From the NCBI RefSeq assembly GCF_022201045.2, contig NC_068560.1, positions 34,745,001-34,809,000 of the forward strand: a DNA stretch of 64,000 nucleotides. The letters run 5' to 3'. Position 1 is the stretch's first letter. Each line of letters begins with the position of its first letter. The notes below the pieces were generated by a model. The model worked only from the letters and a program-made list of their open reading frames with translations. It did not search any database and was not told where the DNA came from. The translations under genes and the position numbers were made by a program. The DNA is from Citrus sinensis. Its lineage: Eukaryota > Streptophyta > Magnoliopsida > Sapindales > Rutaceae. Below, piece by piece: positions 23,579-59,622 of the stretch.

Positions 23579-23848
23579 TCGCCGTGGGTCCTTAACTAAT
23601 TTTAAAAATGATTATTCCCAAGTGCAAATATATCTATATTTCTTTAAATTTTAACCTTAATAATCTACTGGTCCACAAAATGGGCTTTTCAACTGTGGGC
23701 CTCTAAGAGGACCAAACAGTAAGCCCAATGCAGCAAACAGATAAATCAAACCGTGGAAAGAAAATTTAAGGAAAAAAAAAATCCAACACGAAACGGAGAC
23801 AGTAGTTGTTTGTAGCTCATGAAGTGGGGAGTTGCAGGATAAGAGAAG

Positions 23849-26800
23849 ATGCAAACTCTTGTTCAGCCTTGTAAGTCTTTCACTTTCACTCTTCTCAACT
23901 CAGCACCACCACTTAGCACTTGTAGTTTTGTACAAAACGGCAACACAAAGTACCCACTTCAACAAAGTAGGAATTTTCACTCGTTTGCTGCTAGTTTTCG
24001 GTTCTTGAGGAGTACCCACATTGTGTTCTGTTCCCAAAAGGATGTCTTTGATGATTTATCAAGTGCCCAATTTCCTGAAAATGTTGAAAATGAAGGTCTT
24101 GAAGGGAATGAAGAACTTGAGCTTTTGAACAAGCCTAATTTAGTGCCCATAAGTAATGGGGTTGCTTCAGAAGTTGATAAAAAATCTGAAAAGCCTGATG
24201 AGGAAGAGGCCTTAGCGCCCTTTTTAAAGTTCTTTAAGCCTAGAGATTCAGCGGAAGAGGTAGAAGAAGAGGGAAGTGAAGTGGGGGTTTCAAGGGAGAG
24301 CATTGATGTTGATGATAAAGTTGGGGAAGATAAGGTTAGTGTGGAGTATTATGAGCCAAAACCGGGTGATTTTGTCATTGGTGTTGTGGTTTCTGGCAAT
24401 GAGAATAAACTTGATGTGAATGTTGGGGCAGACTTGTTGGGGACAATGTTGACTAAGGAAGTGTTGCCTTTGTATGACAAAGAGATGGATTTTTTGTTGT
24501 GTGATTTAAAGAAGGATGCTGAGGAGTTTATGGTTCGAGGGAAGATGGGGATTGTTAAGGATGATGATGCTATTGCTATGAGCGGGGGCTCGGGCCCAGG
24601 GAGACCTGTTGTGGAGACTGGAACTGTTTTGTTTGCTGAGGTGCTTGGGAGGACTCTTAGTGGTAGGCCGTTGCTCTCTACTAGGAGGCTGTTCCGGAAA
24701 ATGGCTTGGCACCGAGTGAGGCAGGTTCTTTTCTTGCTTTCTTCTTATAGTTTGTCAGATATATAAATTCAGTCGAAAATTTATAATCCTGTTGTATTAC
24801 TTGTTATATGATGTTCTGAATTGTACGAGTCATTTCGAAGCATGAACAAGAGTCAGATACTTTTGATCTGCTGCCAAAATTGAGAATACCTAAGAGTGTG
24901 TGCTTTTACAGAATCATCTATTTAATTTTGTCTTAGCAACTGTTTTAATGCAAGCATTCAATTTCCAGTCAATGAAATGGCCTATGATCAACAATTTTTG
25001 CTTATGATGAAATTTGAGTAGTTTTGATGAGTTTGGCCACATCTTGGACAGATAAAACAACTCAATGAACCTATCGAGGTTAAATTTACAGAGTGGAATA
25101 CTGGTGGCCTGCTTACAAGAATTGAGGTTGGTTGTCTTATTGGTTTGTTTGTTCATGCACATGTGTTTCAGATTTTGATCATTTTCAAATGATCTTGCAG
25201 GGTCTACGAGCGTTCCTTCCTAAAGCTGAGTTGCTGAGTAGAGTGAACAACTTCACTGAGTTGAAAGAGAAAGTTAGTTGAGATTATTTAGACTTTTGAT
25301 TAATGATACTCTAAGCTCTTTAACTGGTTATGTCACAATATTTCTGGCCTTTAACCATGGATAACGGTTACTATCATCTCAATTTCAAACATTACATATA
25401 GATGTTAAATTAACAATCTGCTGCTGACGGCTTGGTATATCACCAATTGTAGAAGGCTAAATCTAGCATAGACTTGTATCCTATAGGTATGTGGAGAGGA
25501 AGCACTTGTAAGATATCTAGTTCAGAATCAGTTATATTCACTTCTGACATTAATGAATTTGTTAAGCTAATTGCAAGATTTTGTTAGTAAGACACCTAGG
25601 TAGCTAGATTTTTCAAATGGAGATGATATTGTGACTTCTGGACGCCTGATTGCTTTATTAGAGGTGATGGTAAGAAGAGTTTTACCTGTTTCTGCCAAAA
25701 AAAAAAAAAAAGGACTTCTATCTTAAACTCAGCAATCAAAAAGGAAGGAAAAATTTTGTTTTAACTCTATATATGTTTTTTCACTGCTGTCATGTCCCTT
25801 CAAGCATGTCTTGGCAATCTTGTTTCTCTTGAGCGTCTTTACTTAAGTTCTTTTTTTCTGGTTACTCTTGTTCTTATATACCATCGATGTACTAGGGTTC
25901 GCTCAGATGTTTCCTTTGTTATGTTTTTTGCTCTCTTGCTTCTTTTTTTGGCATTGATGGTATGCTTCTAATGCATTGTTGGTTTCTTGATGTTGTAGGT
26001 GGGGCGCCGCATGTATGTGCAAATTACTCGAATAAATGAAGATACTAATGACTTAATACTGAGTGAGAGAGAAGCTTGGGTCAGTTTTAATGTGGCATTT
26101 TGGCACCTTATTGTTCTTTGACGTACTTTGGATTTCGTCCTCTTTGTCCTACTTCTCCAGGGAAGAAAAGACAGCCTGATTACTTTGATGTATGATATGG
26201 CAGGCAACATTAAACCTCAGGGAGGGAACACTTTTAGAAGGAACTGTTAAGAAAATCTATCCCTATGGAGCTCAAATAAGAATAGGTGACAGTAACAGAA
26301 GGTGTGTTCTTTTCTTGAGAAGTTTTAAATTTTATTGTCTTTACATTTTCTTTGCTGACCTGAAGTTTCATGTTAATGCCCTTGCTGCTTATGGGGACAG
26401 TAAAATTGCGTAAAGCATAGGTTTATCATCATTTCTCTCTGTTGCTCAAGTCTTAACTGTTTTTTATATATGCTTATCTATTGCATCACTTTGATCTGAG
26501 ACTTTTTGCAACTATATGTGTATTAGTGGCCTGCTGCATATTTCCAATATGAGCCGCACCCGAGTTACTTCTGTCAGTGATTTACTTAACGAGGGTGAGA
26601 GGGTTAAAGTTCTTGTTGTGAAGTCAATGTTTCCTGACAAAATCTCTCTCAGGTAATTAAAGACAGTCTTGGTAGATTTTTTAGTTTATTTGCTTCAAAA
26701 AGAAAAAAGAGTTTATTCCATGCATGTTTGATGCATCAAATATCTTTAAAATTTTTCTCTTTTAGAAATATTACTGTTCACTTGCTACCTGAATTTTTCT

Positions 26801-27751
26801 CTTGATATAAACATCATACTTAATATTCCTGGACCTGAACACCAAAAGCTTTACGATGTAGGGAAGAGTTTAGTTTGTGGACCTCTGATTCACTTTTGTA
26901 ACACTTATTCCCTTCTAATATTTTATAAAGTTTCTCTATTTTCTATACCCAAAAGAAAAAAAAATTCCTGGACCTGAGGTATGTGGAATAACCATTTGAC
27001 TTTTGGAAGAGAATCCTGCCCTGGCCTGGAAAGCTCTCTATTCAACTTTTTTTAAAAAAAATAAAACTAAATAAACCAATTTTTTATTCTCATGATATTT
27101 TGTCGACGGTTTAGTTACTGCTAACTTTTGCTTCCTTGGATTGAAATCACTTTAGCAGATGCAAAACAAAATGCCTTTCCAGTATGGACTATGTAGGATT
27201 TTGCTAAGATGAAAATGAATTCGAAAAAATAGATGACTTAATTTGAAACCTTTTGGACATTTTCCAAATTATATCTATTAAATATTTTAGCATGAGCATG
27301 ACTTGTTGGATATATTCCTAATGCTTGAGCAAGATTGGAATATAAATTGTCTATATTAGAAAATCTTTGCAGATAACAAATTGTTGCGGATAATATCTGA
27401 CAATGGCAATTTTGCTTACATTGCAGTATTGCTGACCTTGAAAGTGAGCCTGGCCTATTTGTTTCTGACAAAGAGGTGCATATAATTTTCTTGTTTATCC
27501 TACTTTTTAATAAGCAATATAATGTGTGGTTCTTAGTTCATTTACGATAACTTGTCTGATATCAATTCTTACTTCCTTGAAAGAGAGTATTTTCCGAAGC
27601 TGAAGAGATGGCCAAAAAGTACCGGCAGAAGCTGCCCGCTGTTTCAGTAAGTCCCAAGTCAGAGTCCCTTCCAACTGATACTCTACCTTTTGATAGTGAA
27701 GCAAGTATGTGTGCAAATTGGAAGTGGTTCAGATTTGAGCAGGATTCGTAA
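23849..27751 (+). CDS. RLSB: Chloroplast S1-domain RNA-binding protein (RLSB/PDE338 type)
   Basis: Plastid RNA-binding protein; the RLSB family binds the 5' region of rbcL mRNA and supports Rubisco large-subunit expression (Arabidopsis At1g71720, maize RLSB). Eight exons: 23849-24724, 25052-25126, 25201-25272, 25999-26079, 26204-26301, 26527-26652, 27427-27475, 27584-27751, total 1545 nt, 514 residues. The N terminus is Ser/Thr-rich and lacks acids for about 60 residues, as in a transit peptide; an acidic stretch follows. S1 repeats: a diverged one starting KPGDFVIGVVVSG (about 170), one around VKFTEWNTGGLLTRIEGLR (about 300), and the best one from GTLLEGTVKKIYPYGAQI to DKISLSIADLE (about 374-450). 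The C-terminal end NWKWFRFEQDS matches the conserved family tail, which fixes the stop at 27749-27751. Confidence 0.92.
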
Positions 27752-32700: not shown

Positions 32701-33340
32701 AAAATCTTTAAAAATATTCGAAGTATTTAAACACAAAGCAATGGGCAACTACACTCTCTCACCACCCTCCAAGTCTTCTTAGTAACAAACAAACAAACAA
32801 ACAAACAAAGCTGAACTAGCTCTCAAAACTCAAACACACAGCCACCTCCGGCCGCCGCCACCGCCACCGCCACCACCATCACCACTTCCATACCATGCAC
32901 AACATTTATGAAGTGCGATAAGCTGCCATATTTAGGCCACAAAGGCTGTCCAGTTTCATCATTATCTGTTGTTCAGCACTAGCTATCTAGAGGTAAAATT
33001 TTCTGGTTTGTTTTGATCTTTCTACTTAACTTTTTTGATAAATAAAATCCTTCATTAATGGATGATCTATGACATCCTTGAGAACGTTTTTTCCTTAGTT
33101 TTTTTTTTTTCTGCACATGCAAACGGGGTTCAAGTTGTTCAACTCTGTAGTGTGAAGTTTAAGCATTCTTTAAAATCACCACCACCAGCCGAAAATTTAA
33201 TCTCTTCTCACATGCATGTTGTCTCCAAGAGTGGACTTTCACTTTCATCATCATCACCATTACCAAGACCAGCATTTTCATCACAAATAACCTTCATTTT
33301 TATCTTAAATTTCACCATTTGAAACCATAACCTTTACCCC

Positions 33341-36300
33341 ATGGCTCAAATGAAAAAAACACTCTTGTTTTTCTCATTCTTATTCTTGTTAACAATGTCA
33401 AACACTTTTGTTTCTTCACTCTCTCCTGATGGAGAAGCACTTCTTTCTCTAATCTCAGCCTCTGGCCCTTCTGCTAAAGCATCATCATCAATACTTTCTT
33501 CATGGAACCCTTCAAACTTGACTCCATGTTCATGGCAGGGCATTACTTGTTCTCCTCAAAACAGAGTTATTTCCCTGTCTCTCCCAAACACGTTCCTCAA
33601 CCTTTCTGCTTTGCCTCCTCAGCTTTCGTCTTTGTCTTCTTTGCAACTCCTCAATCTCTCCTCAACAAATATCTCAGGCATAATCCCTCCTTCTTTTGGC
33701 CAACTAACTCATTTGCGCCTCTTGGACCTTTCCTCTAACTCTCTCTCGGGACCAATTCCTGAAGAGCTTGGCCAGCTCTCTTTGCTTCAGTTCCTTTTTT
33801 TAAATACCAATAGACTTTCAGGTAGCATTCCTCCTCAGCTTGCCAATCTTACTTCACTTCAAGTCCTTTGTTTGCAAGACAATCTGCTTAATGGCTCAAT
33901 CCCATCTCAACTGGGTTCTTTAGTATCTTTACAACAATTTAGAATTGGCGGGAATCCTTACTTAACAGGTGAGATTCCTACACAACTTGGAATGCTTACA
34001 AATCTGACCACATTTGGAGCTGCAGCCACCGGCCTTTCTGGTGTTATACCACCCACATTTGGTAACTTAATCAATCTGCAGACATTAGCTCTTTATGATA
34101 CTGAGGTTTTCGGATCAATTCCACCTGAAATTGGATTGTGTTCAGAGTTGAGGAATTTGTATCTGCATATGAACAAGCTTACTGGTTCAATACCATCTGA
34201 ATTGGGTAAGTTGCAAAAGCTTACTAGTTTGCTTTTATGGGGCAATACGTTGTCTGGACCAATTCCAGCTGAGCTTTCCAATTGTTCAGCACTTGTTGTG
34301 CTTGATGCCTCTGCCAATGATCTTTCTGGTGAATTACCTGGTGACTTGGGGAAGCTTGTGCTTCTTGAGCAGCTTCATTTGTCTGATAATATGCTTACCG
34401 GTTTGATTCCATGGCAGCTGAGTAATTGTTCAAGCTTAACTGCTCTTCAGCTTGACAAGAATCAATTTTCGGGTTCGATTCCATGGCAGATTGGTAACTT
34501 GAAATACTTGCAGAGTTTTTTCTTGTGGGGCAATTTAGTGTCTGGAACAATACCAGCCTCTTTTAGCAATTGCACAGAACTGTACGCACTTGATCTTTCG
34601 AGGAACAAGCTTGCAGGGTCCATTCCAGAGGAGATTTTCAGTTTGAAGAAGCTGAGCAAGCTTCTACTTTTAGGAAACTCATTATCAGGAGTTTTGCCAC
34701 GAAGTGTTGCGAATTGTCAGTCATTAGTGAGATTGAGGCTTGGAGAAAACCAGCTTTCAGGGCAGATTCCGAAGGAGATAGGCCAATTGCAGAACTTGAT
34801 CTTTCTTGACTTGTACATGAACCATTTCTCTGGTGGTCTTCCTTCGGAGTTTGCCAATATTACAGTTATTGAGCTACTGGATGTTCACAATAACTACATT
34901 ACTGGGGAAATTCCGTCTCAGTTAGGGGAGCTTGTGAATTTAGAGCAGCTTGATCTCAGCAGAAACAGCTTGACAGGTGTAATTCCTAGGAGTTTTGGAA
35001 ACTTCAGTTACTTGAACAAGCTTATTCTCAACAACAATCTATTGACAGGGTCAATTCCAAAATCCATTAAAAATTTGCAGAAACTGACTCTGCTTGATTT
35101 GAGCTACAATAGCCTATCTGGTGGAATTCCACCAGAGATTGGTGAAGTAACAAGCTTGACAATCAGTTTGGACTTGAGCTCAAATGCATTTACAGGAGAG
35201 CTTCCAGAGACAATGTCTAGCTTGAAACAGTTGCAGTCACTTGATATTTCGCATAATATGCTATATGGAAGAATCAAAGTCCTCGGTTCCCTTACAAGTC
35301 TCACATCCCTGAATATCTCCTTCAATAATTTTTCAGGTCCTATTCCTGTAACAACATTCTTTAGAACTCTATCATCTAATTCATATCTACAAAACCCTCA
35401 TCTTTGTCAATCCACTGATGGGTCTACTTGTTCCTCAAGTCTCATTCGGAAAAAGGGTTTGAAATCTGCCAAAACAATAGCTTTGATTGCTGTTATTTTG
35501 GCTTCAGTGACCATAGCCCTTCTTGCTTCATGGATTTTAGTTACACGAAATCATAGGTACAAGGTGGAGAAAGCTTCAGGAATGTCAACTCTACCACCGG
35601 GAGCTGAAGATTTCTCTTATCCATGGACTTTCATTCCCTTTCAAAAGCTCAACTTCACCATTGACAACATCCTGGAATGCCTAAAAGATGAAAATGTGAT
35701 TGGCAAAGGCTGTTCGGGAGTCGTCTACAAGGCTGAGATGCCTAATGGTGAGTTGATTGCTGTGAAAAAGCTTTGGAAAACAAAAAGAGATGAAGAACCA
35801 GTGGACTCATTTGCAGCCGAAATTCAAATTCTCGGACATATTCGGCATAGAAACATCGTCAAGCTCCTAGGTTATTGTTCCAATAAAAGTGTTAAGCTTC
35901 TACTTTACAACTACATCTCGAATGGCAATCTACAACAGCTGTTGCAAGGGAATAGGAACTTGGACTGGGAAACTAGGTACAAGATTGCAGTTGGATCAGC
36001 GCAGGGACTGGCTTATCTCCACCATGATTGTGTTCCAGCTATACTTCACAGAGATGTTAAGTGCAATAACATACTTCTCGATTCCAAGTATGAGGCTTAT
36101 TTGGCAGATTTCGGATTGGCAAAGTTGATGAACTCTACAAATTACCACCATGCAATGTCTAGAGTAGCCGGTTCTTATGGTTATATAGCCCCAGGCAAGT
36201 ATAAATTGCAAATCATTGTTCTTTCTCTTCAAATTTGGATAGCTTTTCAGTTAGTTGTTTTAATGAAATTATAGTTGCATCCCTACAAATACCTGTGATG

Positions 36301-36821
36301 TTTCAAGAATTCATAATGTTCATTTTGATGATTGTGGCTTCAAGGAGTCATCTCTTAGAAATAATGGTTACTTATTTCTATTAATCTTTTTGATAAATTG
36401 TAATATCGACATCTAATATAATTCTGTGCTCAATGCAGAGTATGGATACACCATGAACATAACTGAGAAGAGTGATGTATATAGTTATGGTGTGGTTTTG
36501 CTTGAGATACTAAGTGGGCGTAGTGCCGTTCAGCCCCAGATAGGCGATGGGCTACATATAGTTGAGTGGGTGAAAAAGAAAATGGGAAGCTTCGAACCAG
36601 CTGTATCGATACTGGACACTAAGCTCCAAGGCTTACCAGATCAAATGGTGCAAGAAATGCTTCAAACACTAGGCATTGCAATGTTTTGTGTGAACTCTTC
36701 GCCGGCAGAAAGACCAACAATGAAAGAAGTTGTTGCATTGTTAATGGAAGTGAAGAGTGCACCTGATGAATTGGGCAAGACTTCACAACCTCTAATAAAA
36801 CAGTCCGCAAATAAAAGTTGA
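33341..36821 (+). CDS. LRR receptor-like kinase, subfamily XI (RGF-receptor-like)
   Basis: Plasma-membrane receptor kinase. Two exons, 33341-36194 and 36439-36821, total 3237 nt, 1078 residues. Order: signal peptide (about 1-27), LRR cap with CSWQGITC, more than twenty 24-residue LRRs, membrane helix at about 710-733, and a kinase domain from about 780. The kinase has IGKGCSGVVYKAE, AVKKL, HRDVKCNN (about 902), DFGLAKL (about 922) and APE with the glutamate split by the intron. HRD makes it an RD kinase. The ectodomain has RIGGN near 201, fitting the RxGG motif known for receptors of RGF/GLV-type peptides; length and sequence are close to Arabidopsis At1g34110. Ligand specificity is inference. 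The single intron begins GC, not GT. Confidence 0.95.
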
Positions 36822-44064: not shown

Positions 44065-47000
44065 TCAACTGGGCCTCAATGATGCTTTCTTGTCAGAATA
44101 TGAAGCCCTTCCCCTAAACCCAACAACACTCAGTTTTGAAGCTCCAGACTTCCCAGCACCCATCTTCCCACCCGAAGATGCTTTTCTGGAGCTGCTTGCA
44201 GGTGAGGATTTTCTGCTTCCAGTGAAGGTCTTCACTGGCTTTGATATCTTAACTGCTGCCTTGGAAGATTTTGCTGGAGTCGATGCTTTTCCAGATTTTG
44301 TTACCGAAGATTTTCTTCCTGAGGTCTGGGATGATTTCTCCAATGCAGCTTTAGTCTTGTTTTTCTGGCGCGACACTTTCATCAATTTAGCAGCAGTCTT
44401 CCCCTTCTGCTCAGTTATTCTAGTCCTGGCAACATCTCTTCGGACATTATCTTTAGTGAGAGCATCCAAGCTCTCATTCTTCCTTATTGCCTCCTCAATA
44501 CGATCAGCTAACAACACGTCCTTTTTAGCCACCAGACTAGTCACTTTCCCTGAGAAGATAACAGAAGATAACAGGATAATGTAATATAACTGAGGAATTT
44601 AGCTCCGCAGTTCCAGATGTCAGAAGAAATGCACAGAATTTCAAAATTACTAGACTAGAGAAAAGTCACCGTGCAGCTAATCACAGGCAAATAATGGGCT
44701 TATCATGCAAATACTGAGCAGGATAGACAATGTAAACCCAAATAGTTCCATTGGGACACCACTGATTCACAAAGGAGGGACAGACACATTCAGATGGATT
44801 TACATGCAATACATTGTTAGAAGGAATTTGGCCAGCCAGAGCCGAGCACTATCCTTCATGTCTCATTCCAAATACTGAAACTTTCAGTTGTCATAAGAAA
44901 AGAATCTAAATTGACAAGAATTGGTGTACCTTTTGCACCCATGCGAGCAGTTCTCCCTGTGCGATGCAAGTAATCAATCTAAAAGGGCAAAAAAAAGTAG
45001 GATTTAAACTCCAAAGATTAAAAGAAGCAGAAATAGCAGTGGGGAAGGGGCAAAAATATTGGACAATCAACAAATTGACAACAGATATACTTACAGAGTT
45101 CAAGGGGAAATCAAACATGATAACATGATCTACATCCAAGTCCAGTCCTCTCGCAGCCAAGTCTGTGCAGACCAATGTGGGACAATCTCCATCTTCATTC
45201 TTAAATTTGTTGAGATTTTCAACCCTGGATTTAAAAGAAAAACAGTTGGCTCTCGTACAGACACTATAAAAGGAGATTATATATTGTATCATCTCACCTC
45301 TCTTGTGCTGGCACCTCACCGTGGTAATTAACAGTAGAAATCTGATTCTCATTCAGGAAGTGATCAACAGCACGACTAGAATTTAATGTGTTACAAAAAA
45401 CCATCACCTTGTTTCCCTTAGACAAGCTTGGCTCAAGAACCTGCTCTCACAAAATTCTGATGTTACAACTACCAATATTCTCTAGTTCAAACAAATAGCC
45501 ATGACTAAAATTAAAATACAAACAAACCACAAAGGCAGACCTGTAGCAATGCTTCCAGCTTGTTTTCAGACCCTGAAAGTTTGATGAAATCATGTCGAGC
45601 AGAAGCAATCTTTTTATGCAGTGTCGATGTTCGTAAATGTGCTATTCCTTGAAATTCCTCATCCACCAGCTTCTGCACTGCCTGAAGAAACTCAAGAATG
45701 CCAGTTATACAAGTAGTTTAAACTAAACCTTTATCAACAAACAAAAAAGTTCATTCATGACCATTGACATTGAGATTTCTGGAAACTACCATGTTTTGGC
45801 AAGTTTTGTGCATAACCCCATAAAACACATGCAGCAGTTCAGTAAGATACAAGGGCAAGAGACAGATACCTTTGTCATTGTTGCGCTAACCAATACAGTC
45901 TGGAATCCCTGGCCATTGGGTTTTGATGCCCGATTCTTTAATGGAACAAGGAATTTACGTATGTCAGGACCAAATCCACGATCAAACATGGTGTCTGCTT
46001 CATCCAACACCTACTAAAAAAATTATTAAAACGATGAACTGCAGCCAAAGCAAGGCAATAGTACTTATAATAGCACAATAACTCAAATGGTCCTTGAAAA
46101 AGACTTAACTCTCAAGGCAGGACACCAGAAGAACTCACCAAGTATTTGATGTCACCATAAACCATGTTTCCATCCTCAATATGTTGAAGAATTCTACCAG
46201 GGGTCCCAACTACCATGTCAATAGGGTTATTTAATGAATCTTCCTGGGGTCTCAACCGGCCACCACCACTGACCATGGTAGATCTGAATCTTGCATGATG
46301 GCTAATGGATTTTGCTACACGAAAAACCTGCAAAAACCATTTTAACATTTTTAATTGCATCAATTTCACTACCTGTAATTGAGTTAGCTCCAATTTTAAA
46401 TAACTATATAAAAACCTGCTCAGACAACTCCCTAGTGGGGCATAACACAACAGCACGTGGACGCCTGGGCTTCATTAGTACACCTAGCATTGCTTCATCA
46501 TGTCTCAGCAACTGCAAATTCAAAAATTTCTACTGTGAAACTCTGATTCTGGCACAGGCAGTATGTAATCATATTCCAGATATCAGCAATCTTGAAAATC
46601 CAACTCAACAAATAAGATACATTTTGATGAATTTACATATCCCCAATCAAAAGGATGGGGTTTCTGAAAAGACACACAGAAAGCTACAGCATGTTACAGA
46701 CACTAAAAAAAAAAAGTCAAAAGTTATATGAATCAAGCAAAAAAAGAAAAAGAAAAATGAAAAAACAAATAAAATTTACAATACAGTGTATATGTTTAGA
46801 AAGCTAACAAGAGACTCAAAACTCAATAAAACATCATCTTGGACTCATACCTCAATCTAACCTGAAAAGAAAAAATGGCAAAATCAAATTTGTCCCAAAT
46901 AACACACAAATGAACCAAATGGAATCCCTTTTAGACGACCCACAAAGCAAAATGTAATCAAAACCCAAAATTGCTCAAATGACAGTAAAATGTGATAAAA

Positions 47001-47668
47001 AACCAAAGTTGCTCAAATAACACGCAAATGAATAAAAATGAATGTTTTGTAGCAGACCAAAAGTCAAAACTTGAGCCAAAATTCACAAAGCCAAACAAAC
47101 AAATCATAAGACAGAAACAAAAATTTACCTGAACAAGAGGCAACATATAAGCTAAGGTCTTGCCAGAGCCAGTATGAGAACCCAAAACAACACTTTTGCC
47201 ATCCAAAACAGCAGGAATCCCAATACACTGAATCTCAGTAGGAACTTCAATACCCATTTCTCTCACAGCCCCCATAATCTCCTCACTCAATCCCAACTCT
47301 TCAAAACTTCCCACACTCACAACCTTCTTCTTCTTCTTCTTCTCATCAAAGTCCTCACCTTTACCTTCCCTTGCAATAGAAGTCAGTGATTCTTGTGTTT
47401 TGGATTGCGGGGTTGTTTTGCTCGGGCCCTTAAGATGCCTAGCCCTCAGCCTATCAAGAAGAATCGAGTGCCTCACTTGTTCTGGACTTTCTGGTGGCTC
47501 AATGGTTGCGGTGGGTGCTGAAGTACTGCACAAGGATCTAAACCCCGGAAAAACCCTAAAACTGGGATTTTTAGGGAATTTGAGAAATGGGCGGTAGCGT
47601 TTGGCTGATGATAGCAAAGAGAGTGAGAGGATTGTTTTTGTTGTTGCTAACGCCATGGCATTTTGCAT
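44065..47668 (-). CDS. RH39: DEAD-box RNA helicase, RH39 type, chloroplast
   Basis: Arabidopsis RH39 acts in chloroplast 23S rRNA maturation (hidden-break cleavage). Nine exons: 47668-47129, 46511-46416, 46327-46139, 46010-45870, 45681-45541, 45440-45298, 45224-45095, 44978-44930, 44549-44065, total 1914 nt, 637 residues. The N terminus is basic and Ser-rich, as in a transit peptide. RecA1 has [10 protein letters not shown] and the Q motif, motif I TGSGKT (about 166-171), PTREL, TPGR, DEAD (278-281) and SAT. RecA2 has [26 protein letters not shown] and [10 protein letters not shown]. The C terminus is a Lys/Ser-rich low-complexity tail of about 100 residues. A second ATG 12 nt downstream (MALATTK) is an equally good start. 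The adjacent gene at 48325-50395 is its diverged partial copy. Confidence 0.94.
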
Positions 47669-48324: not shown

Positions 48325-50395
48325 TCAAGATCCTGGTGCTGATAAATGAAGGGAATCCATAGCCTCGACTACTTTTTTCTTCAGGGCATCTTGAGATTCA
48401 GTGAGATCGAATACCTCTGCTTGGTCCATCTCGAGCAACATTGCAGTCACTTTTCCAGCATTATCACGCTCAAGACACTCCATAAGGGAAGATAGCTGTT
48501 CACCCAGCATCTGGAATTGTCAAATAGTAACAATAAACATGCAGTTTGACTAGATAATATTAGTTCAGAATTTTGTGAGGAATAGAAAAATTACAAGGCA
48601 ATCTCTTAAGTTACATTCCTTGTAACTTACATCCAACAAAAATAATGCAAGAATGAGTAACATGCATGTGGGCCATGTGGGGCTAATGTCTTACTTTTGA
48701 CTTGTTTTTTGTGGCATGAGTCAACATATCAAAACTCTCCAGAGAGTTAATGCATGTTTTTACCTCGGCAATTGCGGCTGTAACCAAAATGGTTTGAAAT
48801 CCTTGGCCATTAGACTTCAATGCACTATCTTTTAATGGGTTCAAAATTTTGCTAATTTCAGGACCAAACCCACGATCAAACAAGGTGTCTGCCTCATCCA
48901 AAACCTATCAATAGATAATTGTCAACAATAAAGATAAAGGGAGTTTTCCATAAGAACATACAAGCATTTGCAATTCTCAAAATTCAAGAAAAACTATACA
49001 TTGATGCAAGGCATCCGTGAAAAAATGACAGAGCATGGAAAGAACAGAAAAGGACTTTCTGTATCATTGGAGAAACAAATTAGCATGACAGCTTACTCAC
49101 CACATATCGGATGTCATCACAAGAAACATTTCTGTCCTCGATGTGTTGAAGAACTTCACTTGGGGTCGCAATCAGCATGCCAATAGGGGCATTTGACACG
49201 TCTTCCAGGGCTTTTGAGCTGACACCGCCATTCTCCATTGAAGAGTCCAATCGTGCACAATGACTGATAAACTTTGCCATGTGGAAACCCTTGCAAAGTC
49301 CATCGAAAGGTGATTTTCAGAAGTGAGCACACCCTGGTCTATATAAAATATAGATTCTCTAGAAAGTAAAAGAATAGAGAAGAGTGCAAGGCACCTGATC
49401 AGCGGATTCCTCTGTGGTACACAACACAATGGCTCGAGGATGCATAGGCTTCATAGGAAGCAATGCCTCATCTCTTCTCAGCATCTGCGTAATACCAACC
49501 AACTGTAAATGATGTTCTTCATCTAATTGAGAATACACCTATTAACAAGTCGTCAAAATAACCAATCCTATATTCCAATCAAGATCAGGACCAATGACAA
49601 ATGAAAATCATTTTATAGCTTCAATAAACAGAAGAAAATATTTAAAGAAAAATTAATGTATTGATTTACGATGAAATTTGAAGAGAAATCAATCATTAAG
49701 AATTACAGAAAATAAAGATGTGGGTAGCCAGCAGGCAGCCGCAGAACATTACAGTTTTGGCAGGATCTCATAACTTAACACCCATAATTATATCAACTAA
49801 AATCAAAAGTTAGTTAATACAAAAAGTCGCAGCACCTCAAGCATACCCTATGAGACTTATTTTGAAAATTAAGAACCAACAAAAAATATGAAAATACCTG
49901 AACAAGAGGCAGCAAGTAAGCCAAAGTCCTACCAGAGCCAGACCCAGAGCTCAAAACAACAGACTTGCCATTCAAAACAGCCGGAATCCCAACACACTGA
50001 ATCTCGCTTGGAACAAAAAGACCCATTTTCTCAACAGCCTTTATCATCTCCGCCTTCAACCCCAGCTCTTGAAAACTTGACACGACTTCTGCATTAGACC
50101 CACTACTTTTCTCCCTCTCAGAAGCAATGTTTGATAGTTGTTGCTGTTCTGGTTGAGGTGGTGAAGGTTTGTTTTCTGGGTTGTTGGTTTTAGCAGAGCC
50201 TTTAAGCTTTCTGAGCTTGAAGTTTTCAAGAATGAAAGAGTCTTTTTCGGGTTTTGATGGAACTCGCTGTTGAGTTTCTTCGGTTGGGGTGGTGGTTTTG
50301 GTGGAGAGAGGCCTGATTACTGGAGAAGACTTTATTTGTTTTACCGAGTAAAGGACTTTTGCCAGATTGACAAGTGATTTGCCTGTCCTCTTCAT
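48325..50395 (-). CDS. Chimeric half-helicase (RH39 RecA1) with PABP-type MLLE domain
   Basis: Five exons: 50395-49898, 49484-49395, 49289-49101, 48904-48764, 48510-48325, total 1104 nt, 367 residues, all GT-AG. Exons 1-4 align with exons 1-4 of RH39, with the same phases and with equal lengths in exons 3 and 4 (189 and 141 nt). Seen: ELGLKAEMIKAVEKMG and SEIQCVGIPAVLNGKSVV (Q-motif region), Walker A changed to GSGSGRT (151-157, Lys to Arg), Ia changed to TTEES, Ib to TPSE (238-241), DEAD kept (262-265), III changed to TAA (301-303). RecA2 is absent. Residues 307-367, from MLGEQL, are an MLLE domain with the key GKVTAMLLEMDQ helix, about 60 percent identical by eye to the MLLE of the PABP at 56553-59622. 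So it is probably ATPase-dead but could bind PAM2 peptides. The N terminus is basic and may be an organelle signal. Expression is not shown by sequence. Confidence 0.85.
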
Positions 50396-51192: not shown

Positions 51193-53660
51193 TTATTTGT
51201 AGCATTCAGGCTTCAACACTCCAACATAAGGCAGGTTCCTATATAATTCAGCAAAGTCCATTCCATAGCCCACAACGAAATAATCTGGACACTGCCAAAC
51301 AAGCAAACAACTCAATCATATTTAAATCCCAAATAATGTCAGTCATCAGTCATGACCACAAATTACGAATAAATGAGATATGATGATAATAATTGTTATG
51401 AAGCTAAAGTAACATAGCTCTGCAGCCAAAACAGGCATGATAAAGGAAGGAATCCTAAAACTGTATTAGCTAGGTCTAATAGGTTTTGAGGACCAAAATC
51501 TCAAGTATGATAACTAGTTTAGGAGTTGAATAGCACCATAATCCATATGGAGAATTTTCATCGGGAGAAGCATTTAGGATACTCATCTTAAATGCTAGCA
51601 GTGCGGCAAAATGCTGGCGGCAGGAACTTAATAACCTCATGTATTTTTTATCATTGTGAGCACTGAATAAAGATCTATTTGCAGTCAAGTTGGGAGGAAA
51701 AACATCTAATTCCATGATGTTTTGGACAAGCATTAGCACATTATTGACTTGCATATGTAACATGTTCAAATTATCTATTAAAAGAATGCCACATAAGTGT
51801 TGGTGGAGGTTACCAAATGACATATTTGTCTCAACATATGCGCAAGCGCATGCATCTCATGAAAACAGAAAACATGCTCATGTAGACAATTGCACACACA
51901 TCTTACCTCAAATCCCCGATAGAACTTTCCTTCACCCACTAGCTCCACCTGAATCTTTCTTCTTGCTGGTTTATCAAGGAAAGTGCAGACTGAGACAGAA
52001 GATGCTCCTTTGGATACCAAGTTTGCAATAAGAGATGATAATGTGGTTCCTGTATCTACAATGTCCTCGACCTGAGAACAAAGGAATGTATGCATCTGTT
52101 ATCATACAAAAAACCTGGATGTGATAAAAAGCCCTTGATAAAAAAAATGAGGAAAGAAGTACAAGCAAAGGAATGTATGCATCTGTTATTACACTGGAGA
52201 AAAAATAATCTGAGGAACCCTTTTTCAAGAAAGTAATTTAAATACCCATATTGTACCTTGCTTTGCACATAACATGAGAAACTAAAAACTCAGCAATTTA
52301 ATATCAAAAAGTCTCTAAAGAATGTACATCATAACTCACAAGTCGCAACTATATTTCCAGTCTTGACAAATCGAGTCCTAAATAATATGATACTATATTT
52401 TGGACAAAAGGGTAAAACTTGCCGGGTTTTCAACTTTATGTCAATTTGGTCGAATCAAGATTTGTACCGTGTAAAAATTCAAGTGATGTTTGGTAGTTAA
52501 TATAGGGAAATTATCATTCATATACCTTATATTTGCTCTGTTATAAAAAATACTGCAATACTTTGAGGGTGTATCAATCGTCCACCTTTAGTTGACAAAA
52601 TGTATCAGCCGACCACCAAACCGTTAATTGTCGTTTGAAAGTTAACGGAGTTACAGTGAATTGACGATTTTACCCTTGAAAATTATCACGTGTATACCCT
52701 TAAATTCTCTTTTTATCACTTGTATACTCTTAAATTATCACTTGTATCATATGAAAAGACCAAATTACCCTTCTGACGTCATCATACTTAAACGGCAACT
52801 AACAGTTTGGTGGTCAGCTGATACATTTTGTCAACTTAGGGTGGACGATTGATACACTCTCAAAGTGTTGTAGTATTTTTGATAATGGAGTAAACTAAGG
52901 ATATACAAATGATAATTTCCCATTAATATAAAAACAAGACAAAAAAAGTAAATGGGTTAAATCTTCCACATACAGTATCACTGATGAAGGTTTTCTGTGA
53001 TGAGATGAGTTTTACTGAGCATTGAATTATGGTCAGAATTATTTTAAATTTTCACTTTTTTCTATTTTTCTTACCTAAAATCTATGGATTTAGTACTTGG
53101 CAAAAACTCAGCACTAAAACACTGAATTCTAATGGATTCACTAAAACACATGGCCTAATCCAACTTAGCCACCGCGTCAGTTGACCACCATTTATCAAGA
53201 GTACGTTTACTCTTTAGAAATAAAATGCTAATAAATGCTACTGTATTCTGTATACAGTCTGACTGACGTGAAATGATATAACTGAATTAAACACTCAACT
53301 CAAAATTAAAATAATAAAATATGAATTAAAAATTTTATAAGTAGATTTGACGGGAAATACCAAGATTACGTGCTTGTCCTTAACATCGAGTTTCGAATCG
53401 AGGGAAAGAACAGGGGCTCCACTGGAGAGCGTACCGGAGCCGTAGGATTCAGCACGAATGAAATCAACGGAGATAGGGAGGTGAATATTTCTGACCAGGT
53501 CAGCCAAGAAGATAAACGCTCCGGTGGCGACACCCACGACGACAGGCGGCGGGGAAACGGAGTTGAAATCGTGGGTGATTTGGGCGGCAAGCTCCGTTAC
53601 TCGGCGAGAAATTTGGTCCTGTGTCCAAAGCACCTTCTCTATGTGAGAGTCCATTGACAT
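51193..53660 (-). CDS. HGPT: Hypoxanthine-guanine phosphoribosyltransferase
   Basis: Purine salvage: joins hypoxanthine or guanine to PRPP, giving IMP or GMP; cytosolic. Three exons: 53660-53361, 52071-51907, 51291-51193, total 564 nt, 187 residues. The type-I phosphoribosyltransferase PRPP loop [10 protein letters not shown] sits at residues 101-110, directly at the start of exon 2. [20 protein letters not shown] precedes it, and the C-terminal [20 protein letters not shown] carries the base-binding region of HPRTs. Length is typical. An internal ATG at 53654 is an alternative start. A Mutator-type MITE lies in intron 1. The gene matches Arabidopsis At1g71750 in type and relative position, from memory. 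Confidence 0.94.
52505..52921. mobile_element. Mutator-type MITE in HPRT intron 1
   Basis: 417 bp, with both ends GGGAAATTATCATT in inverted orientation and arms alignable for about 130 bp. Flanks GTTAATATA (52496-52504) and ATTAATATA (52922-52930) form a 9-bp target duplication with one mismatch. The terminal GGGAAATT is shared with the larger Mutator-type element at 12865-14092, suggesting a related family. Confidence 0.85.
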
Positions 53661-54904
53661 GATAAAGTGGGGAGACTGTTACTAAAAGTCTTGGGGCCTT
53701 TTGAAGTTTTTGGCAAATAATGGTTGTGATGAATGACGAATGATCGTCAAAAGGAGCACTAACTTGTAGTGGCTGTAGGCAGCGATTACTTATCGGATTG
53801 GATTGAGAATTTTGAAGAGTGTGAATTTTAGGATCGGAAGTGTGGAGTGAGAGTGGGAGTAAGTTATTTGCTTACATTAGAATGGAAGTATGAAATAGAG
53901 GTCAGAATTTAATTTATGTGTTTATTTTGTTTTGGATTGAGAGTAAATAATTTTAAATTATAATTTTATCCTTATTTAAAAAATTATAATTTTTAATTAT
54001 AAAACTAATAAAAAATATATTTAATGCATAATATTTATTTTATTATATTTGTAAATTTATTATAATTATTAATATTCTTAATTATGAACAATAAATTATT
54101 AATTTTAATATAAAATGAAACCTTATTTTATTTAATTTAATTATATTAAATTTATTATTATATAAAATAATCATATAATATTGTTTAGTACAAAATTAAT
54201 ATTTTCTTAGAATAAACTATTTATTATTATTAATATTAAATAAATATAGTACTATTATTTTTAAAATAAATACAATAATATTATATTTATTAATTCTCTA
54301 TTAATATAATAATATTATTTTAAAATAATTTTAACTTATAATCAATACAAATTATTATTTAGTTAAATATAATATTATTATTCAAATAAATATAATAATA
54401 TTATTTATTTTATTTTATTAATTATAAAATATTAAATTAAATTAAAAATAAAAGGGTAAAAAAGGGAGAGGTGGGAGTGGATTCCCACTCCCACCTCCCC
54501 CAATGGGAGTCCCACTCCCACTCCCACTCCCCACTCCAAAAATGAGTGAGACTCACAAAGTGAGATTCTTAATTCCTTCTCATTTTGAGGAAGTAAATAT
54601 TAGAGTGGGAGAAATCCACACTCTTTATTTCTACTCTAGCAAGTAAACACAGCACTAAAGAAGACGATAAATGGGGACATGGGATGCCAGCATTTTTGGG
54701 TTACCATGAAATGAATGGTGATTGAACCGGAAGCCCAGTGGCCTTGCAAAATTTGGGCTCTTAAGCCCAAAATATTAAATCCTGAAAAGTGGCGCCAAAA
54801 TTCAAAAAATTTCGGATAAAACGAAAAAAAAAAAACACAAAAAGCCAAAAGTCAAAAACTGATCGCAATCCTGTGGGCTGTGGTGCGGCGAAAAGCAGAA
54901 GACA
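53661..54904. other. Divergent spacer with a very AT-rich island
   Basis: Head-to-head spacer between HPRT (-) and the MRNIP-like gene (+). About 53940-54440 is almost pure A and T. It is bordered on the right by GGGAGTGG/CCACTCCC words and repeated CCCACT units (54470-54545), and on the left by GAGAGTGGGAGTAAG near 53850. The outer edges (TTTGCTTACATTAGAATGG and, inverted, TTTACTTGCTAGAGTAG) look like imperfect inverted ends, so the whole 53865-54650 block may be one MITE; the target duplication is unclear. Confidence 0.5.
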
Positions 54905-56071
54905 ATGGGGAGCAGGATGTTCATTGCGGTTCAATGCTGCGAGTGTTGGATGATGCAGGTGAAGCAGCAGAAGAAGAGCGGCAACAAGTGGACGTGCGTC
55001 GTTTGTAACCAGAAGCAGTCCGTACGGAAGGTGTTTGCTAAGGGCTACATGGCCAAGGATCTCCGTCAATTCGTTCAGTCCTTTAATATGTCTCAGTCTC
55101 AGAAACCTCAAACCCTATCTCATCAACTAGAAGAAGAACAACAACAACAAGGTAAAACAAAAGATACAAGTAAAAATATTTATTTATTTATTTACTCACT
55201 CATGTTCCAATGCCGATTTTTGATTGATTAAGCAGTGACTTTTGTATTTTTAGTATGTGTAGGAGATGGACTTGAATCGAGAATTGGAACTGAGATGCCG
55301 AACAAGAAGCCCAAATTGAGCATTAATGGTGCGCATACCGGAGATGGAGAAGGAGAAGAGTACGGATCCGGTATGTGCGTTTGTTTATTAGCATGTGGGA
55401 TAATGCTCCCTTTTGTCTTCACCATGTTTATTTAACTGCAAGCAAAATGTTCTACTACTACTCAAGGTGAAAGGGACTCGACCATTTGTTGGCCATCAAT
55501 GACCAAAGCTGTTGTATCTAAGTGGAGCAAATACCTGAGCGAAGATGACATGGAGCCTGAGACTTGCCAAACGGCAAAGGTTAATTCTGGTTCAAAAGGG
55601 CATACGTTCATAACTGAAGATGACGAAGATGAGGAGCAGAAGAGGGCTCGTCCACCAACAATGGCAATGGGTATGTTAAAACAGAGTAATTACACTCAAG
55701 ATGACGTCACTCCTAGGAGTCACCAAGAAAAAGTTGCCAAGGCTGCTTTAAAATGGGACAACTACTTGACAGAGGATGGTGATGGGCAGCAGAGGAGTCA
55801 ATGGCCAACAATGGCAATGGGTCCTTCAAAAGAGAAGAATTACTTGACTCCAGATGACATCGAGCCTAGGAAAACTTGCCAGAAAAAAGTGGCCAAGGCT
55901 GCTTTACAATGGAATGATTACATGACAGAAGCTGGAGAGCAGGGGACTCGATGTCCAACAAAAGTGGGGAAGAGTGCTTCGAAATGGAATAGTTACTTAA
56001 CACAGGAAGAAGAAGATGAATTGCAACTTGTGAGCTGGAAGCAATTTCGAACAGATCATTTGGGCAAATAG
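54905..56071 (+). CDS. MRNIP-like zinc-ribbon protein with W-x2-Y-L repeats
   Basis: Related to animal MRNIP (MRN complex-interacting protein), which acts in DNA double-strand-break signalling; the plant role is unknown. Three exons: 54905-55151, 55254-55370, 55467-56071, total 969 nt, 322 residues. The N-terminal zinc ribbon has CCECWMMQ and, after a basic loop, KWTCVVCNQKQS, followed by FAKGYMAKDLRQFVQSFNM as in MRNIP. The C-terminal exon holds six spaced copies of a short acidic motif: KWSKYLSEDD, KQSNYTQDD, KWDNYLTEDG, KEKNYLTPDD, QWNDYMTEAG, KWNSYLTQEE. Alternate units share KVAKAAL and PTMAMG flanks, pointing to internal duplication. Exon 2 also has an in-frame alternative acceptor at 55235 that would add six residues. 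Confidence 0.88.
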
Positions 56072-56552: not shown

Positions 56553-59500
56553 TCATTCATTCACTGCCAGTGAGCCAAGCTTCTCGTTTACATCAGATCG
56601 TGCTGCAGCTTCTTGGAGTACAGCCATTGCCTCAGCCACCTTTGTCTTCAGAGCTTCAGGAGACTCAATGAGATGTAGCACCTCTGTTTGGTCCATCTCC
56701 AGTAGCATCCCAGTTACCTTCGATGCATGAACAGGTTCAATATTCTCCACAAGGGGATAAAGCTGTTCTCCTAGCATCTGTATGCGCAACAAGAAAACAA
56801 CAATTATGCTTCACATCTGAATGACTAAGTAACCAGTGGAACTATAAAAGCAAAATACTATCTCAGACACTTGACTGATTACAACTAAAGGGGAAGGAAG
56901 ATATTACATACCCTGGTACGATCATCAGGGCTGGCAGACGCCAAAGCAGAAGTAAGAGTTGAAATTGGCACTGGCACAGGCCGTGGGGTTTCTACAGGAG
57001 TTGCAGGCATCCCTGAAACCTCGAAAGGCACTGGCACCATTGAAACAACAGATTGGTCTGTACCGTTTCTTGCATTGTCCAGGTATCTAATCCCCTGATT
57101 GGAGTTACGCATAAACTGAATTGAACACGTGGGCCAGAATTAAAAGCACAGGTGAGCAAATAATGGTACCATATATAATGAAAGGAAATTATTTTAGACC
57201 AACAGCTTAAGGGAAGAATTGAAAAAATAAAGTACTTAATGCACCTGAGGCTGCTGCATCTGATGGGTGTTTCCGCTTCTTCTCACACCCGTTCGCTGGC
57301 CAGGATGCACTTGCCTTTGAAGATGATATGGCATTATATAGTTTGGTCCACCAGGACGCAGTCCAGGAAACACTTGCTGCTGAAAACCATATCCTGCAGC
57401 TTGAGGGGGCATTAAACCTGGGGTACCTTGACCGTAATAAAGCTGCTGAGGACCAAGCCTAGGCGCCCCATGATGATAGCCAGGAATTCCAGATGCCAGT
57501 GGTGACATTCCACCAGGTGCTCGAATTTGAGCAAACTGTGCCTGAAGAAGGAAAAAGACAATGTAGATTGGTATCACTGGGCTCAAAAAGTGTAACAAGA
57601 TATGAGTGACCAGTGCTAACTTCCAACCATCTAAATCAATCATACCAGCATTTCATGCGTTCCTACATTTTAAAATATTTATTTATTAAAAGATGAAAAG
57701 AAGGCTTTCTATTAACAATTAAAACACACATGTTGTGCAAATCGCAGATACAACAACACAACAGTTTAGATAAATGAACTAATATAAAGTTTCCAATATT
57801 AGAACAAAAGATGAAATCACAAAGATCACCTGCAGCCGAGCCTTCCTCTCTTCTTTACGTTGGGCCACAGCAACATAAAGAGGTTTCCGGCCAATCATCT
57901 TCCCATTCATTTCATTCAACTGAAGAAAATATCAGCAATAATTTATGCATTGATGAGACAAAACAAATAATTGACAGGTGCCGGGGGGGGGGGGGGGGTT
58001 CGTTCTAAAGAATTTTCTGAGACTGAACAGTAGAAACTTACAGCCCTTGTAGCTTCCTCAAGCATAGAAAAGGCAACAAAACCTGATCCCTTGCTAAATC
58101 CATGTTGATCAACCATGACCTGAAAGAATTGTATTGGTGAAAAAAATAATAAAAAGCGAAAATTGCATTTTAGCATCAGCACAAAAAAGTTACAATTACC
58201 TTGCATGATGTTATAGTTCCAAACTCAGAAAATAACTCCTTCAGTTTTTCATCATTTATGCTGTCATCCAGATTTTTCAAATACAAATTGGCTCCTTTGA
58301 GTTTTTCATATCTACTGATTCTTTCCTGTTCAAACTTAGCCCTCAAGTCTGCCTCCCTTTCAGCTCTCTTCTGGGCTCTCCCCACATACCAAACCTTGTC
58401 ATTGTTGGTAGTCCCATTCAACTTTTCCACTGCCGCAGCAGCAGCATCTGGGCTCTGAAAGTTAACAAAACCAAAACACCTAGACTTTCCATCAGAGTCC
58501 TTCATTACAATTGCACTGGTGATGGTACCAAAATGGCCAAAAATTTTCTTAAGGTCCTCATCAGTCACAGTTTCTGCCAAATTGTTGACATAAACATTAG
58601 TGAACTTTGGGGAGACATTCTGTTGAGCCCTTTCTTGGCGTCGAACAAAAAGACCAACATAAACTTGTTTATCATTTATTAGCATGCCATTCAACATTTT
58701 GATAGCATTTTGTGCAGCTTCCTCATTTTCAAACTGTACGAACCCGTATCCTTTCGATTGACCATTACTATCAATAGCCACTTTGCAAGAAAGCACAGTC
58801 CCAAAGGCAGCAAATGTATCACACAATGCCTTGTTATCAATTGATGTGTCCAAGTTTTTGATAAAAACATTCCCATATCCACTCTTCCGGATACTGGGAT
58901 CTCGATGGGAATACATGATCCTGATTGGTTTCCCATTAATAGGCATAAAGTTTAAAGCCTCCTTTGCATTAGCAGCTGCATTAGAAAACATTAACCATTT
59001 AAGGCTTAACCAAACATCGAATAAGCAAAACATGTGTAAACTTATGAACACTTCATACTTTTAATATTTTTTAAACATCCGGTTACAAACAGGCATACAT
59101 ACACAACATTAATCTCCCACTTCTGTAGATTCTTACTACACAAGTAATCTCACATCTCAAAGGAATCAATCACCAAAACACAAGTGCAAGAATACATTAC
59201 ATGTTATATCCAATAACAAAAATCTAAAAATAGATTGAACGTCATCTTCGGTCTTCAAGTCTATTTAGGTATCAAATTAAAAATGATAATAATCTCGCTT
59301 ATATAATGAGATTAATTGATTAAATTATTCGATTGTTGATTTGATCAATAAAATTAGAGGAAAAAAAAAAACTAGTACCGTCCTGAGGATTGCTGTAATT
59401 AACGTAAGCGTAACCGAGAGATGATCGCTTGCTCTGATCACGACAAACCCTAACGGAAACAACCTGAGCGACCTGGCTAAACAGATCATACAATTGACTC

Positions 59501-59622
59501 TCGTTCACGTTCTGCTCCAGATCCCCTACGTACAGAGACACATTCCCGTAACCCGATGGGACCGCCGCCGTTGTTGCACTGGTAACCGCCGCCGTGGCTG
59601 TCGCCGCTCCGGTCGCTTCCAT
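56553..59622 (-). CDS. Poly(A)-binding protein, cytoplasmic type
   Basis: Binds mRNA poly(A) tails and links them to initiation and decay factors. Seven exons: 59622-59379, 58975-58200, 58119-58042, 57919-57830, 57541-57245, 57115-56912, 56777-56553, total 1914 nt, 637 residues. Four RRMs in order: [11 protein letters not shown] (about 28), [11 protein letters not shown] (about 117), [11 protein letters not shown] (about 205), [11 protein letters not shown] (about 310), each with its RNP1 ([28 protein letters not shown]). Then a Pro/Gly/Gln/Met-rich linker (about 397-563) and the C-terminal MLLE domain (564 onward), wholly coded by the last exon and containing [12 protein letters not shown]. 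The relative position fits Arabidopsis PAB5 (At1g71770), from memory; expression class cannot be told. The last exon is the likely type source for the chimeric gene's MLLE. Confidence 0.95.
57983..57998. repeat. Poly-G tract (16 G) in a PABP intron
   Basis: Sixteen consecutive G on the plus strand, C on the transcribed strand, in the intron between exons 58119-58042 and 57919-57830. Confidence 0.95.

Follow-up and report, generated by a model that had tools for sequence, protein, structure and literature searches.

The window, i.e. the whole stretch of 64,000 nucleotides of Citrus sinensis DNA that was analyzed (contig NC_068560.1, positions 34,745,001 to 34,809,000), carries on its minus strand, in this order, a poly(A)-binding protein (PABP) gene, an HPRT-type phosphoribosyltransferase gene, a chimeric gene and a full-length DEAD-box helicase gene. 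Besides the chimera, these are:

56553-59622, minus strand: complete PABP gene with 7 exons, 637 residues, four RRM stretches and an MLLE domain; last exon at 56777-56553
51196-53654, minus strand: HPRT-type phosphoribosyltransferase gene with a Pfam Pribosyltran match and GT-AG joins, between the PABP gene and the chimera
44065-47656, minus strand: full-length DEAD-box helicase gene of the RH39 type with 9 exons and 633 residues, matching Pfam DEAD and Helicase_C

The label RH39 for the last of these genes (47656-44065) is provisional and follows an earlier reading of the sequence only, with Arabidopsis RH39 rather than RH22 as the presumed orthologue. The PABP gene, which was located by a motif scan of all six frames in the window, lies on the same strand as the chimera, and its 3' end is 6.2 kb upstream of the start of the chimera. 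This PABP gene, which is complete and shares its last exon with the chimera, had not been mentioned in the sequence-only reading. Its six introns fit the pattern of a class I (PAB5-like) PABP, described in passages of PMC4252990 as the eight ancestral introns less two; class I PABPs are, according to the same passages, mostly restricted to reproductive tissue.

An MRN-interacting-protein (MRNIP) domain is found on the plus strand between the PABP and the HPRT genes (54863-55225, 79.5 bits). Further features of the window are a leucine-rich-repeat receptor kinase with two long open frames (33323-36815, plus strand), a phosphatase-type gene at 7783-8691 and an S1-protein-like gene at about 23843-27700, the first exon of which has no Pfam match. 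The order of the phosphatase-type, S1-like, HPRT and PABP genes resembles the presumed order of Arabidopsis At1g71710-At1g71770; the S1 identity is putative. In Arabidopsis, At1g71720 is RLSB and At1g71770 is PAB5 (for PAB5, passages of PMC4252990). If the Arabidopsis order does match, the HPRT and PABP genes may be old neighbours.

Structure of the chimeric gene

The chimeric gene extends from 50395 to 48325 on the minus strand, and its five exons form one open frame of 1104 nt, i.e. 367 codons and a stop. Its parts are as follows:

49898-50395, minus strand: exon 1, homologous to exon 1 of the RH39-type gene, with a presequence-like N-terminus, the Q motif and an altered motif I (GSGSGRT)
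49395-49484, minus strand: exon 2, with TTEES instead of PTREL at the position of motif Ia
49101-49289, minus strand: exon 3, with GG retained and TPSE instead of TPGR
48764-48904, minus strand: exon 4, with DEAD retained and TAA instead of SAT; its end site and phase are those of exon 4 of the RH39-type gene
48511-48763, minus strand: intron 4, 253 nt, the probable site of the fusion breakpoint
48325-48510, minus strand: exon 5, with MLLE helices 2-5 (Pfam PF00658), the signature KVTAMLLE and a TGA stop

All four introns have GT-AG borders in the splice model, and the junction of exons 4 and 5, which we infer to be spliced together, is in phase 0. In the encoded protein, DEAD (residues 131-305, 93 bits) is followed directly by MLLE (residues 306-359, 58.3 bits), both above the Pfam cut-offs, and no RRM is among the Pfam families listed for it, in contrast to the four RRM stretches of the local PABP. 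Both the chimeric structure and the intact frame with GT-AG borders throughout, as claimed by the sequence-only reading, are thus confirmed. Codon use also agrees with the exon model: the called frame ranks first among the three sense frames in each of the five exons, and the scores are at the level of five exons of the helicase gene that were scored alongside, with a codon table trained on the receptor-kinase genes and on the local PABP gene, its last exon included. In exon 5, one antisense frame scores slightly above the called frame (0.357 versus 0.343). The chimera may be a functional gene that combines its parts in a new way.

The helicase half, the MLLE exon and the predicted product

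Exons 1-4 of the chimera match exons 1-4 of the RH39-type gene one to one and with corresponding intron sites, and 122 of 200 residues are identical in the RecA1 core, from which the N-terminal part of exon 1 was omitted because it is poorly aligned; this agrees with the earlier claim that four exons were copied from the adjacent RH39 gene. The chimera retains the Q motif VPSEIQ (residues 128-133) and the DEAD box (residues 262-265). In its motif I (residues 151-157), the Walker A lysine is replaced by arginine (K156R) in comparison with outgroup helicases. The replacements of PTREL in motif Ia and of TPGR in motif Ib are seen against four outgroup helicases, whereas the change of SAT to TAA in motif III is judged against the parent gene only, because the outgroup stretches end earlier. 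Helicase_C, i.e. the RecA2 part with motifs IV-VI, is present in the full helicase gene and absent from the chimera in the Pfam search, and tblastn at E-values up to 1 found no RecA2 stretch in the window outside the full helicase gene. Among the sites at which at least three of the four outgroup helicases agree, 30 are kept by both proteins, 15 only by the RH39-type gene and 4 only by the chimera, with sites retained by neither protein left out of this count. Judged from the established functions of these motifs, the RecA1 half is a predicted pseudoenzyme that should not work as a helicase, and the earlier description of this half as probably inactive is supported by K156R, by the loss of PTREL, TPGR and SAT, and by the absence of RecA2.

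The chimera MLLE is devoid of helix 1. The frame of exon 5, taken as 64 residues of which three come from the intron, matches the MLLE family with 65.4 bits (E 4.7e-18, cut-off 27), and its AlphaFold model consists of four helices (mean pLDDT 75.2, pTM 0.58). When this model was submitted to Foldseek, the best 24 of 34 matches were MLLE domains of PABPs, UBR5 and Rrm4, with probabilities of 0.84-1.00 and every E-value above 0.001. Seventeen positions that contact the PAM2 peptide were drawn from passages of PMC2854688, and 13 of these are the same in the chimera MLLE and the local PABP, including Gly563, Glu564, Lys580, Thr582, Met584, Leu585, Leu586, Glu587, Lys606 and Ala610. The differing ones are 567, 579, 613 and 617. 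Position 567 holds an aromatic residue in the human, wheat and local PABPs, which packs on the Phe and Pro of PAM2; in the chimera it is Ser, so that one wall of the PAM2 pocket is altered. Positions 613 and 617 are also Ser in the chimera, position 579 is Gly in the chimera and in the human protein and Ser in the local PABP, and residue 560, outside of the 17 contacts, is Glu in the chimera.

In the signature itself, KVTAMLLE stands in place of KITGMLLE, so that glycine 583 (in our numbering) has become Ala. Passages of PMC2854688 describe a glycine of KITGMLLE as "perfectly conserved" and number it 579, which could be read as position 579 or 583 here; if position 583 is meant, the loss of this glycine in the chimera would count against PAM2 binding. 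The contact positions are retained more often than the remaining positions (13 of 17 versus 23 of 44), a difference that is not significant (Fisher p 0.15). It is plausible that the chimera MLLE binds PAM2 with lower or altered specificity.

The product would be a RecA1 half that is unable to act as a helicase and that bears a four-helix MLLE domain. We tentatively suggest, as a possibility that we would not yet call probable, that it serves as a peptide-binding adaptor or competitor, in which the dead RecA1 half would be the scaffold for an MLLE domain that reads PAM2-like peptides, though with a specificity that is altered or weakened. The N-terminus of the chimera bears directly on this role, as well as on that of a decoy or adaptor for PABP partners, which the sequence-only reading had held possible. 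Residues 1-38 contain no acidic residue and the first 40 residues contain eight Lys/Arg, the parent helicase being similar in this respect, and the helical moment reaches 0.54 over residues 1-18; the moment alone is unspecific, since the HPRT N-terminus reaches 0.58. Taken together, the N-terminus looks like an organelle presequence. If the chimera is indeed imported into an organelle, then cytosolic PAM2 proteins are beyond its reach, and the presequence-like N-terminus is the strongest argument against a role as PAM2 decoy.

This leads to the main rival explanation, which we consider unlikely, namely that the chimera is an organelle pseudohelicase. It would be imported into the plastid or the mitochondrion like RH39, which acts on chloroplast 23S rRNA according to passages of PMC5442247, and its dead RecA1 half would modulate RH39-type helicases or their RNA, while the MLLE tail would be a folded cap that replaces RecA2 and never meets PAM2 proteins. 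Such a protein is consistent with the basic N-terminus, although the similar moment of the HPRT N-terminus takes some weight from it, and with the retention of the DEAD box and the Q motif. The alteration of residue 567 and of the signature Gly also fits this rival, whereas the retention of 13 of the 17 contact residues speaks against it. The pairwise omega of the MLLE part, which is 0.19-0.31 in most estimates and 0.46 by YN00 over 61 codons, hints at constraint on the domain and speaks against the rival.

Origin of the chimera

The last exon of the local PABP gene starts with ATACAG|ATG CTA GGA GAA (M-L-G-E), and exon 5 of the chimera begins at the identical residue and in the identical phase. 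Both exons align without gap over 61 codons, with 36 of 61 residues identical, and the ungapped nucleotide match runs beyond the MLLE domain to about codon 61; in tblastn, the local PABP matches exon 5 with E 2.5e-12. The chimera (48325-48330) ends 13 codons earlier than the PABP. What follows the TCT codon common to both exons resembles a small insertion from which the TGA arose, and the C-terminal tail of the PABP would thereby have been lost from the chimera.

With a PABP gene in the window, an exon that had no assigned source becomes the outcome of a probable local rearrangement, and the local PABP is the likely donor of exon 5. The reading that we favour, with moderate confidence, is that of an old, probably functional chimeric gene that arose in this way. 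In a tandem duplication, the duplicated segment would have begun within the last PABP intron, contained the HPRT gene and ended within intron 4 of the RH39-type gene. The seam would thereby have united helicase exons 1-4, with promoter and presequence, with the PABP last exon, both in phase 0, and the latter would have contributed its own acceptor, stop and 3' end. On either side, the PABP gene, the full helicase gene and one of the two HPRT copies would have stayed whole. A second HPRT copy is predicted between the chimera and the helicase gene and its later loss must be assumed, and the MRNIP-like gene at about 54.9 kb would also have been doubled and then lost, unless it is a later arrival. 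The route is known from Drosophila, where the 3' end of a gene can be placed behind the 5' end of a different one by tandem duplications that run without regard to gene borders (passages of PMC5460883). Both candidate parents are found within the window on the strand of the chimera, and the observed gene order is the one predicted by the duplication, apart from the second HPRT.

A second HPRT copy was not found by tblastn in the window, where just two weak matches occur elsewhere (E 0.10 and 0.98), and neither an HPRT nor a RecA2 remnant was detected near the chimera at E-values up to 1. Ten intron pairs were compared, and between 22 and 184 of 200 shuffles were equally good; intron 4 has no similarity to either parent intron, and its anchored identities fall within the range of unrelated introns. 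Two matches of intron 4 to introns of the helicase gene (15 and 18 bases, E 0.044) are in opposite orientation and were deemed chance. The 3' flank of the chimera is similar to that of the PABP gene in a comparison in which 5 of 200 shuffles were equally good, which passes the 95% null in sequence that is AT-rich; for the 3' flanks of the chimera and the helicase gene the number was 25 of 200, and for the 5' flanks 68 of 200. Retroposition of the PABP exon was rejected as the simplest route, as the acceptor site and the phase are kept, the preceding coding exons are absent and helicase exons 1-4 have retained their introns.

The synonymous divergence is similar in both halves. Over the 200 codons of the RecA1 core, dS between the chimera and the RH39-type gene is 0.84, 0.86 and 0.89 by three methods, with a bootstrap range of 0.58-1.2 and a scatter of single exons from 0.48 to 1.6; the maximum likelihood value for the whole of exon 1 (7.2) is saturated and was left out. 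For the MLLE part, dS between exon 5 and the PABP exon is 0.95, 0.65 and 0.87 over 61 codons, and 1.18 and 0.99 over 55 codons (bootstrap 0.6-2.6). These values, although the estimates are loose, would be compatible with one event.

It is quite unlikely, in our view, that another PABP locus supplied the MLLE exon, or that the exon was inserted into a helicase copy that was already truncated. The local gene is not favoured by identity, as the chimera MLLE shares 34 of 55 residues with the local PABP and 35 of 55 with the wheat PABP, and neither a breakpoint nor an HPRT trace was found; the case for the local PABP as donor therefore rests mainly on its proximity. The C-terminal introns have been retained through plant PABP evolution according to passages of PMC4252990, and the intron before the MLLE exon is probably common to class I and class II PABPs, so that the acceptor site alone cannot name the donor. 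Against these points, if the exon had come from elsewhere, the presence of a PABP gene on the same strand at a distance of only 6.2 kb would have to be a remarkable coincidence, and the similar dS of both halves as well as the ungapped nucleotide match beyond the domain also argue for the local gene.

Age, constraint and relation to known systems

The sequence-only reading had left the chimera to be either young or kept by selection. The evidence leans toward the second, given dS values of 0.84-0.89 and 0.65-0.95 and ten tested intron pairs that can no longer be aligned. As these pairs show no similarity beyond that of shuffles, the fusion is old. Simulated neutral decay from the chimera, in which indels were not counted, left the frame open in 1 of 20000 runs at 0.45 substitutions per site and in 59 of 20000 at 0.2.

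An estimate of dN/dS, which had been proposed along with that statement, gives a less decided picture. By NG86, omega of the RecA1 core is 0.309, and simulations with a neutral chimera, in which stops were barred, reached this value in 17, 11 and 7 of 300 runs for a parent omega of 0, 0.05 and 0.1, respectively; with a chimera omega of 0.5, values below the observed one were obtained in 287 of 300 runs. The omega of the RecA1 branch thus lies between 0.5 and 1. Among the exons, exon 3 is the least constrained against the RH39-type gene (0.39-0.55) and exon 4 has 0.11-0.17. In the MLLE part, the constraint depends on the stretch and is less strong for the full 61 codons than for 55: omega is 0.191 over 55 codons, a value reached by 8 of 294, 5 of 297 and 2 of 297 neutral simulations and, upon repetition, by 14 of 592, 8 of 590 and 14 of 596, and it is 0.264 over 61 codons, which was reached by 59 of 599, 42 of 599 and 34 of 600. 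Constraint on both the RecA1 and the MLLE parts is likely, though weak to moderate, and retention of the chimera is better argued from the open frame than from dN/dS.

The same results bear on a further explanation, according to which the chimera is an unexpressed or decaying relic, i.e. a tandem copy of the helicase gene that is truncated and has an open frame by luck or because constraint was released recently. The loss of motifs Ia, Ib and III, the altered motif I and the excess of conserved outgroup sites kept by the RH39-type gene only are expected of such a relic, as is the dN/dS of exon 3, and the observed omega is attained under neutrality in 7-17 of 300 simulations for RecA1 and in 34-59 of 599-600 for the 61 MLLE codons. 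What makes this explanation improbable to us is the rarity with which neutral frames stay open, together with the four GT-AG introns at the parental sites, the coding-like codon use in all five exons and the low omega of exon 4. It is very improbable that the locus consists of two adjoining units that are not spliced together, a truncated helicase copy with its end in intron 4 and, apart from it, an MLLE fragment, or that it is an assembly error: read-through into intron 4 does meet a stop at 48683-48685 and exon 5 starts with its own ATG, but donor and acceptor are present at the parental sites with matching phases, and an illusion of assembly or annotation is unlikely as both halves are diverged copies, which a mis-join of parental reads cannot produce.

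The old, probably functional chimera shares with the RH39-type helicase (47656-44065) exons 1-4, the intron sites, RecA1, the Q motif, the DEAD box and the presequence-like N-terminus; it differs in the absence of RecA2, in the Walker A Arg, in the loss of PTREL, TPGR and SAT, and in having MLLE as its C-terminal half. With the local PABP, putatively of class I (PAB5-like), it has in common the last exon, MLLE helices 2-5, the acceptor and the phase, but it contains neither RRMs nor MLLE helix 1 and stops earlier. UBR5/HYD and the fungal Rrm4 resemble the chimera in carrying a four-helix MLLE on a protein that is not a PABP, yet the domain is accompanied there by a ubiquitin ligase or by RRMs and here by a helicase half. 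MLLE2 of Rrm4, which passages of PMC9249222 liken to UBR5, is without helix 1 like the chimera MLLE, and the same passages name only UBR5 and Rrm4 as described with MLLE besides PABPC1, so that descriptions of this domain in proteins other than PABPs are rare. The chimeras from tandem duplications in Drosophila, in the passages of PMC5460883, are likewise made of the 5' end of a gene and the 3' end of its neighbour; they come from a population sample of one species, whereas the fusion in citrus is old and only a single copy of the gene in the middle is left.

No DEAD-MLLE protein was found among the matches listed from the open-licence full-text literature, in agreement with the earlier statement that no described family joining RecA1 to MLLE is known. 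The matches listed for citrus DEAD-box genes and for plant chimeras contained nothing relevant, and the same applies to passages of the dinoflagellate review PMC12787238. Relatives of the chimera are not encoded in 100 matched stretches of prokaryote genomes or in 67 matched stretches of viral contigs, which were the contig collections scanned and have no bearing on other plants. The route by which the chimeric gene would have formed is known, and a description of the pairing of DEAD with MLLE was not found in the listed literature.

Taken in full, the proposal would be that of an old plant gene that was born by tandem duplication and kept by selection, that places a PAM2-reading MLLE on a dead helicase half, and that, driven by the promoter of a plastid-helicase gene, competes for PABP partners or serves as their adaptor. 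As a whole, we regard it as rather doubtful. If true, it would add to the MLLE proteins that are not PABPs a kind distinct from UBR5 and Rrm4, and a plant MLLE on a pseudohelicase would bring a new player to the PAM2-MLLE wiring. The locus would also offer a clean case of a chimeric gene with its two likely parents alongside and its frame retained at a dS of about 0.65-0.95. It thereby bears on the survival of new genes, and on whether a borrowed domain still recognizes its former ligand once its cellular surroundings have changed.
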